DNA of 37,025 nt, from assembly GCA_903868145.1 (NCBI GenBank), contig CAIPTY010000076.1:1-37025 (forward strand), given 5' to 3'. A program made the position numbers and the translations under genes. The stretch is from an uncultured Desulfuromonadales bacterium. Its GTDB lineage: Bacteria; Desulfobacterota; Desulfuromonadia; Geobacterales; Pseudopelobacteraceae. This document shows positions 28,879-29,857 of the stretch, piece after piece; the stretch's first letter is position 1; each line of letters opens with the position of its first letter. The notes under the pieces are model-generated. The model saw nothing but the letters and a program-made list of their open reading frames with translations, did no database searches and had not been told where the DNA came from.

Positions 28879-28913
28879 AAACGCACGTGCCGTTTGATTC
28901 GGCATGTGCGTTT
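28879..28913. terminator. Hairpin terminator between cheB and small minus-strand gene
   Basis: Fourteen bases (28879-28892) pair with 28900-28913 around a 7-base loop, with a single G-U pair. It lies 24 bases after the cheB stop and 46 bases past the stop of the convergent 55-codon gene; TTTG and a later TCTTTTCTC follow. The reverse strand has its AAAC/GTTT edge too, so it may serve both directions. Confidence 0.75.
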
Positions 28914-28959: not shown

Positions 28960-29127
28960 TCAGGCGCTTGCGTTCAGCAGCGAGCAGCCTTCCCCGATAT
29001 AGTGGATCGCCTTGCCCTGCTCGACCACCCAGTAGAGATTATCCCGGCCGAGCAGGATTGCCACCGGAGAATCAAGGGTTATGGCGTACATCTGGGCTAC
29101 GGAATAAAATGGAAATTTTGCGTACAT
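28960..29127 (-). CDS. Unannotated small protein (55 aa) under a sigma-54 promoter
   Basis: On the minus strand, ATG at 29127 follows GAGGTAA by 6 bases and opens a 55-codon frame ending at 28960. It begins MYAKFPFYSVAQMYAIT, continues with VAILLGRDNLYWVVEQG and ends LLNASA. The composition looks protein-like: hydrophobic and aromatic residues alternate with charged ones, with a single cysteine and no signal peptide or membrane helix. I do not recognise a family. A near-consensus sigma-54 promoter lies 57-74 bases upstream. Its stop is followed by a hairpin terminator. A longer plus-strand frame across the same bases lacks these signals. The combination of promoter, ribosome site, coding frame and terminator makes it a credible gene. 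Confidence 0.68.
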   Translation of the reverse strand: MYAKFPFYSVAQMYAITLDSPVAILLGRDNLYWVVEQGKAIHYIGEGCSLLNASA

Positions 29128-29183
29128 GATCGTTACCTCGTCTGGTTATGTTCTGGTGGATTCGATACTCTTGATTTGGATAA

Positions 29184-29201
29184 AAGCATATCGCGTGCCA
29201 A
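29184..29201 (-). promoter_or_regulatory. Predicted sigma-54 (RpoN) promoter
   Basis: The minus strand reads TTGGCACGCGATATGCTT. The -24 part TTGGCACG is a full consensus match, GG and GC are exactly 10 bases apart, and the -12 part is ATGC instead of TTGC. Transcription would start near 29174 and reach the 55-codon gene at 29127. An enhancer-binding activator would be needed; none is adjacent. Confidence 0.72.
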
Positions 29202-29308
29202 CTAAAATATGCTTCAAATACAGGTATTTAAAAGAATAAGACAATATATTGACTTGGCCGGTAGGCGCGGCATGTACAAAGTATTCAAAATATTGACAGG
29301 AGCGGACT

Positions 29309-29857
29309 GTGGCGCGCTGGGAGATTGAGCTGCTTGGCAGATATTTCAAGGCTGAAGCACGAGCCCTTATCATAGCTCATGGCTGGGCTGTTGCCGGCCT
29401 GGCAGGAAAGGTGAGCGCCCGGCTCGCCCTGCCGGAGTCGGAGCGCAGTTTTATTGAACAGGCTTCTCTGCTGCACGACATCGGCGTCTGTCGTGTCCAT
29501 GCTCCTGAGATCGGCGCAGTGGGTGAGCACGATTACATCATGCACGGCGTTCTGGGGCGGGAAATTCTTGAGATGGAGGGATTTCCGCTGCACGCCCTGG
29601 TATGTGAGCGGCATACCGGCGTCGGACTGACGGTTGAGGATATCGTATCCCAGGGACTTCCACTCCCGCACCGGGATATGACGCCCCAGTCTCTGCCGGA
29701 GCAGATCATCTGTTTTGCCGATCTCTTCTATTCAAAAAAAGCGGGGAGGATTGCCGTGCAGAAGTCTCCCGTGAACGTGCGTCAAAAGCTTGAGAGATTT
29801 GGCGCGGATAAACTTCAAATTTTTGACATCTGGCTGGAGCGTTTTGGGCCGATCTGA
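29309..29857 (+). CDS. HD-domain protein (putative metal-dependent phosphohydrolase)
   Basis: A 182-residue protein starting at GTG 29309 with AGGAG about 7 bases upstream. It has the HD signature: an early His in IIAHGWAVAGLA, the pair in ASLLHDIGVCRVH, a later MHGVLGREIL, and VCERHTGVGLT, with a terminal Asp in ICFADLFYSKKAG. These can bind one or two metals. Such stand-alone HD proteins are usually called uncharacterised or nucleotide-phosphohydrolase-like, and the substrate cannot be inferred. It lies alone between the sigma-54-driven small gene (divergent) and the aromatic operon. A TTGACT near 29250 could be part of its promoter, but I find no good -10. Confidence 0.82.
   Translation: MARWEIELLGRYFKAEARALIIAHGWAVAGLAGKVSARLALPESERSFIEQASLLHDIGVCRVHAPEIGAVGEHDYIMHGVLGREILEMEGFPLHALVCERHTGVGLTVEDIVSQGLPLPHRDMTPQSLPEQIICFADLFYSKKAGRIAVQKSPVNVRQKLERFGADKLQIFDIWLERFGPI

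Follow-up and report, generated by a model that had tools for sequence, protein, structure and literature searches.

A conserved 55-codon gene with FleQ-type boxes and a predicted sigma-54 promoter is a probable member of the flagellar regulon in relatives of Geobacter

Analyzing the window, i.e. the whole stretch of 37,025 nucleotides from an uncultured Desulfuromonadales bacterium, we found that a 55-codon gene on its minus strand (28960..29127) carries two FleQ-type palindromes upstream of a predicted sigma-54 promoter. By sequence comparison these palindromes are a conserved feature and a new observation, absent from an earlier reading of the same DNA made from the sequence alone (the sequence-only reading). 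Given that such boxes also precede the gene of a FleQ-like activator, and that boxes with a sigma-54 site precede flgB, a FleQ-type regulon is where the small gene most likely has its place; we consider it very probable that it forms a single-gene transcription unit of this flagellar regulon, on which the FleQ-like activator would act via the boxes together with sigma-54. The gene is thus a probable, hitherto unnoticed component of the swimming programme, and it would add an uncharacterised protein family to the flagellar regulon in relatives of Geobacter.

The gene starts with ATG at 29127, ends with TGA at 28962-28960 and is preceded on the minus strand by the ribosome-binding site GAGGTAA (29133..29139) and by a predicted leader of about 47 nt, taking the transcript start to lie about 12 nt past the GC of the sigma-54 box, all of which is present as the sequence-only reading had described it. 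The hairpin claimed to follow the gene is also real: located on the minus strand between the small gene and the convergent cheB (28879..28913), it has a folding energy of -19.3 kcal/mol (z -4.6), a stability reached by 0 of 200 shuffles, and is likely a two-way terminator; the output of a simple terminator scan did not include it. Scanning genome_contigs we detected homologues at 27 loci, and the gene was single-copy in each of 30 of the 97 genomes searched, the window's own included. Of the 141 genomes of the order, a profile search placed it in 41, and the 277 genomes of the class gave the same 41, with none added; beyond the family there was one weak match, in G099 (E 5e-11), that tblastn did not recover. 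Three of the 41 genomes carry extra, diverged copies, here described by eye. Two copies in G130 (L192, G130:C154), near outer-membrane-like and multihaem-cytochrome-like genes, and one in G139 (L194, G139:C721) have sigma-54 boxes and no clear FleQ box, and one in G137 (L193, G137:C69), near cheW-like and receptor-like genes, has neither a sigma-54 nor a FleQ box.

The search for homologues that had been proposed with the sequence-only reading showed that start, stop and sigma-54 box are conserved over 40 distinct loci (57 minus 17 duplicates; every count includes L034, which lies at a contig end). The product is exactly 55 residues long in 39 of the 40 and 54 residues long in the remaining one, and the alignment of the family has 19 invariant columns. 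The same reading had named the lack of synonymous-biased substitutions as an argument against the gene; the bias was found, with mismatches of 0.25, 0.17 and 0.56 at codon positions 1, 2 and 3 in the homologue comparison and a dN/dS of the window copy of 0.065-0.348 wherever this was computable (33 of 39 comparisons), leaving out L015, in which the stop lies one codon early, and five pairs without finite dS. That a chance reading frame lies behind a chance sigma-54-like box, as might be thought of a box that by itself is expected about once per window, is refuted by the 40 distinct loci, in which length, start, stop, codon-position pattern and promoter are all conserved; this leaves the explanation a negligible probability. 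By the same conservation, the 55-codon gene is a real protein-coding gene under purifying selection.

The sigma-54 promoter TTGGCACGCGATATGC, i.e. TTGGCACG-N4-ATGC with exact GG-N10-GC spacing, lies at 29186..29201 on the minus strand and matches 10 of 11 consensus bases (TGGCAC and TTGC context). By itself the box is no better than chance: allowing at most one mismatch, the window has one match versus 1.04 expected. It is upheld by its conservation at the loci and not by its single match in the window: GG-N10-GC is found in 40 of the 40 distinct loci, 43-71 nt upstream of the start codon, supporting the predicted promoter that the sequence-only reading had proposed. In Geobacter sulfurreducens, according to the consulted part of the regulon paper (PMC2725144), RpoN promoters have the consensus TTGGCACGGTTTTTGCT and the regulon includes flgB and other flagellar operons. 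The consulted part yielded no counterpart of the small gene, nor was an account of it found in excerpts of the literature on FgrM, the FleQ box, Geobacter RpoN/FleQ and the small proteins of Pelobacter propionicus.

Upstream of the promoter, the window carries two GTCA-N6-TGAC palindromes spaced 44 bp apart on the minus strand, a proximal box GTCAATATATTGTC at 29240..29253 and a distal box GTCAATATTTTGAA at 29284..29297, each matching 7 of 8 half-site bases. In half-sites and spacing, this palindrome is the FleQ box of Pseudomonas aeruginosa, which the consulted part of its description gives as the 14-bp palindrome GTCAAT-N2-ATTGAC (PMC10723142). Between -80 and -20, 13 of the 40 loci had a perfect GTCA-N6-TGAC site and 14 had a best site of 7 of 8, versus 0.0 and 0.4 in shuffles, and when half-site gaps of 0-11 were compared, perfect matches occurred at gap 6 only. 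Two sites of at least 6 of 8 bases are spaced 42-45 bp apart in 38 of the 40 loci (42-44 bp in 35, 45 bp in three); measured from the promoter TGG, 36 loci have a site of at least 6 of 8 at -55 to -52 and 37 have one at -99 to -94. The proximal site is missing in L005, and both are missing in L034, at the contig end. Between boxes and promoter, at about -31, most loci contain a third conserved element with the family pattern TAAC-N3-CTGTTT (29218..29230, minus strand; the window copy has 7 of the 9 specified bases), matching 8 or 9 of 9 bases in 20 of the 40 loci versus about 3 expected from shuffles. This element resembles, without matching exactly, a reversed IHF site, for which the consensus given in an excerpt of PMC7962754 was used.

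Genome-wide, the strict box-plus-promoter pattern was found at the small-gene locus only, which counts, together with the 7 of 8 matches of the window boxes, against membership in a regulon; a looser box-plus-promoter pattern gave five other places, none of them convincing. The looser box GTCAWNWWNWTGAC has 11 sites in the genome versus 3 in a reversed control. Two of the 11 stand ahead of the activator gene and of flgB, and most of the other nine fall inside reading frames. Taking the best 30 loci for each gene among the genomes matched, we found a perfect box 74-105 nt upstream of the activator gene in 29, our genome's own included (0.04 expected). In this genome a box precedes flgB-flgC-fliE, and at the best 30 flgB loci a box of 7 or 8 of 8 bases is present in 26 (about 1 expected), a perfect one in 17 (0.02 expected), a sigma-54 site in 28 (0.35 expected), and box and sigma-54 site together in 25. 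Many flgB genes of the family (L161-L190) have the FleQ-type boxes upstream as pairs, 17 bp apart. Given that the boxes of the small gene are of the published FleQ type and also occur at the activator gene and flgB, the flagellar activator is their most likely binder. The FleQ box, known from Pseudomonas, is seen here in a bacterial group far removed from it, with identical half-sites and spacing, and provides a motif for mapping the flagellar regulon in Geobacter relatives.

By sequence, FleQ is the best PDB match (E 2e-93) of the activator in question (G000:C10:19697-21094), which can be aligned with P. aeruginosa FleQ over nearly its whole length and has a FleQ-like recognition helix in a similar Fis-type DNA-binding end. 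Its receiver domain falls under the Pfam cut-off, and in this genome Asn takes the place of the usual phosphate-acceptor Asp; since Asp is kept in 20 of the 29 aligned orthologues covering the position (by eye), loss of phosphorylation is not general. Of four c-di-GMP contacts checked among those named in the consulted part of the FleQ report, R185 and R334 are kept here, R144 and E330 are not (PMC10723142). This comparison was read by eye from the alignment, assuming a numbering offset of two. N186 of FleQ, which we take to be a c-di-GMP contact, is likewise not kept; with the contacts only partly kept, c-di-GMP control of the activator cannot be assumed. The activator gene and a cheW-cheA cluster diverge from each other, and a transglycosylase gene follows the activator gene. 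This setting beside chemotaxis and transglycosylase genes, together with the box ahead of flgB, was compared by description with FgrM of G. sulfurreducens, which an excerpt of PMC8844916 presents as an RpoN-dependent activator essential for the flagellum, and the activator is perhaps the FgrM of Geobacter. It counts against the regulon that G006 keeps the small gene and its promoter although about 1.7 kb interrupts its FleQ-like activator gene (L207, G006:C3:917448-920523).

The sigma-54 activator domain has 24 matches in the genome (two partial), and the G130 and G139 paralogues with a sigma-54 box have, by eye, no clear FleQ box; both would suit a sigma-54-dependent gene under another activator, responding to a nitrogen, surface or metabolic signal, with the palindromes bound by something else. 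We regard this as quite unlikely, as the palindrome equals the published FleQ box in half-site and spacing and is also found at the activator gene and flgB. A second candidate binder, the activator at L061, has a similar recognition helix (by eye); in the 16 kb around it, a perfect box with an A+T-rich core was not found. The sequence-only reading had left the choice between a nitrogen-limited, a motility and a surface condition: the FleQ-type boxes argue for motility, and given this type of palindrome we do not favour nitrogen control. Its suggestion that a hybrid kinase in the window feeds into control of the small gene gained no support.

Of the two neighbours that the sequence-only reading had listed, one is general and one local. 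The divergent HD-domain gene (29309..29857, plus strand; Pfam HD) adjoins the small gene in 39 of the 40 loci, the exception being the contig end, whereas cheB, convergent with it in the window, lies beside it in 2 of 40; pheA was found nearby in 36 of 40. The distal box lies 11 bases ahead of the assumed GTG start of the HD gene and directly ahead of its ribosome site, and G053, in which the activator is present and the small gene absent, retains two 7 of 8 sites upstream of the HD gene, as would be expected if the boxes served mainly the HD gene and the small gene were a passenger. The HD gene is more widespread than the small gene (89 of 94 genomes). Against the passenger reading, 10 of 12 chosen genomes with the HD gene and without the small gene have no site of at least 7 of 8 in the 450 nt upstream. 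Since five of these 12 also have no activator, the telling figure is that of the activator-bearing genomes, 6 of 7 of which have no box ahead of the HD gene. Position is a further pointer to the small gene, both that of the sigma-54 box and its spacing from the FleQ-type boxes. The data suggest that the boxes go with the small gene rather than with the HD gene, making the passenger explanation highly unlikely.

The membership in a FleQ-type regulon was also examined through co-occurrence among genomes, in which an activator was counted present at a match of at least 64% identity, partial or split activator genes in G006, G032, G049 and G056 were scored present, a 52% match in G001 was scored absent, and G059, which the activator and flgB searches did not cover, was excluded. 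In genera 1 and 7, at a completeness of at least 90%, 17 of 17 gene-bearing genomes have the activator and flgB, while among 9 without the small gene the activator is missing in 5 and flgB in 4 (p 0.002 and 0.008, respectively, uncorrected for kinship). Family-wide, at the same completeness, the activator is present in 25 of 25 genomes with the small gene (the split gene of G006 counted) versus 17 of 22 without it, and flgB in 24 of 25 versus 18 of 22. The contrast is thus weaker than within the two genera: the activator association, uncorrected for kinship, has a p of 0.02 in all genomes and in those at least 90% complete alike, and that of flgB, likewise uncorrected, has a p of 0.09 and 0.14, respectively. 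Given that 17 of the 22 gene-less genomes have the activator, flagella in general do not need the small gene; it seems to go with the flagellar system and rarely to occur without it, but is often absent where the system is present.

The sequence-only reading had recognised no product family, in line with our searches: the window protein had no match in Pfam and NCBIfam profile searches, and among 40 family members PHROG gave none at 0.01 and Pfam none better than E 0.014. A PDB profile search returned a single match (E 0.58). The predicted model is beta-alpha-beta-beta-alpha with a short last strand (best of five models pLDDT 85, the other four 67-70), for which Foldseek gave no match at E 0.001, the best being 1.4. 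Likenesses of fold to part of human PrimPol (Z up to 5.7) and to a SPOR domain (Z 3.9) were rejected as too weak. Our guess is a small cytoplasmic adaptor or regulator of no enzyme family.

In the mechanism we propose, the FleQ-like sigma-54 activator would bind the two boxes 44 bp apart and, through a DNA loop, reach the sigma-54 RNA polymerase at 29201-29186, an IHF-like bend at 29230-29218 possibly assisting, and the 55-residue protein would be switched on together with the flgB operon. The protein may then have a partner in motility or signalling on which it acts; by conjecture, the first candidate is the divergent HD protein. A more specific role, which we put forward tentatively and think rather unlikely, is that of a flagellar checkpoint or feedback factor of a new kind in Geobacter relatives, which would be made only when the activator fires and would bind the back-to-back HD protein or the activator, tuning second-messenger signalling or flagellar output. 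In 25 of the 40 loci the convergent neighbour ends, by eye, like a protein that is EAL plus HDOD by Pfam (one example tested), which adds a hint of a signalling context.
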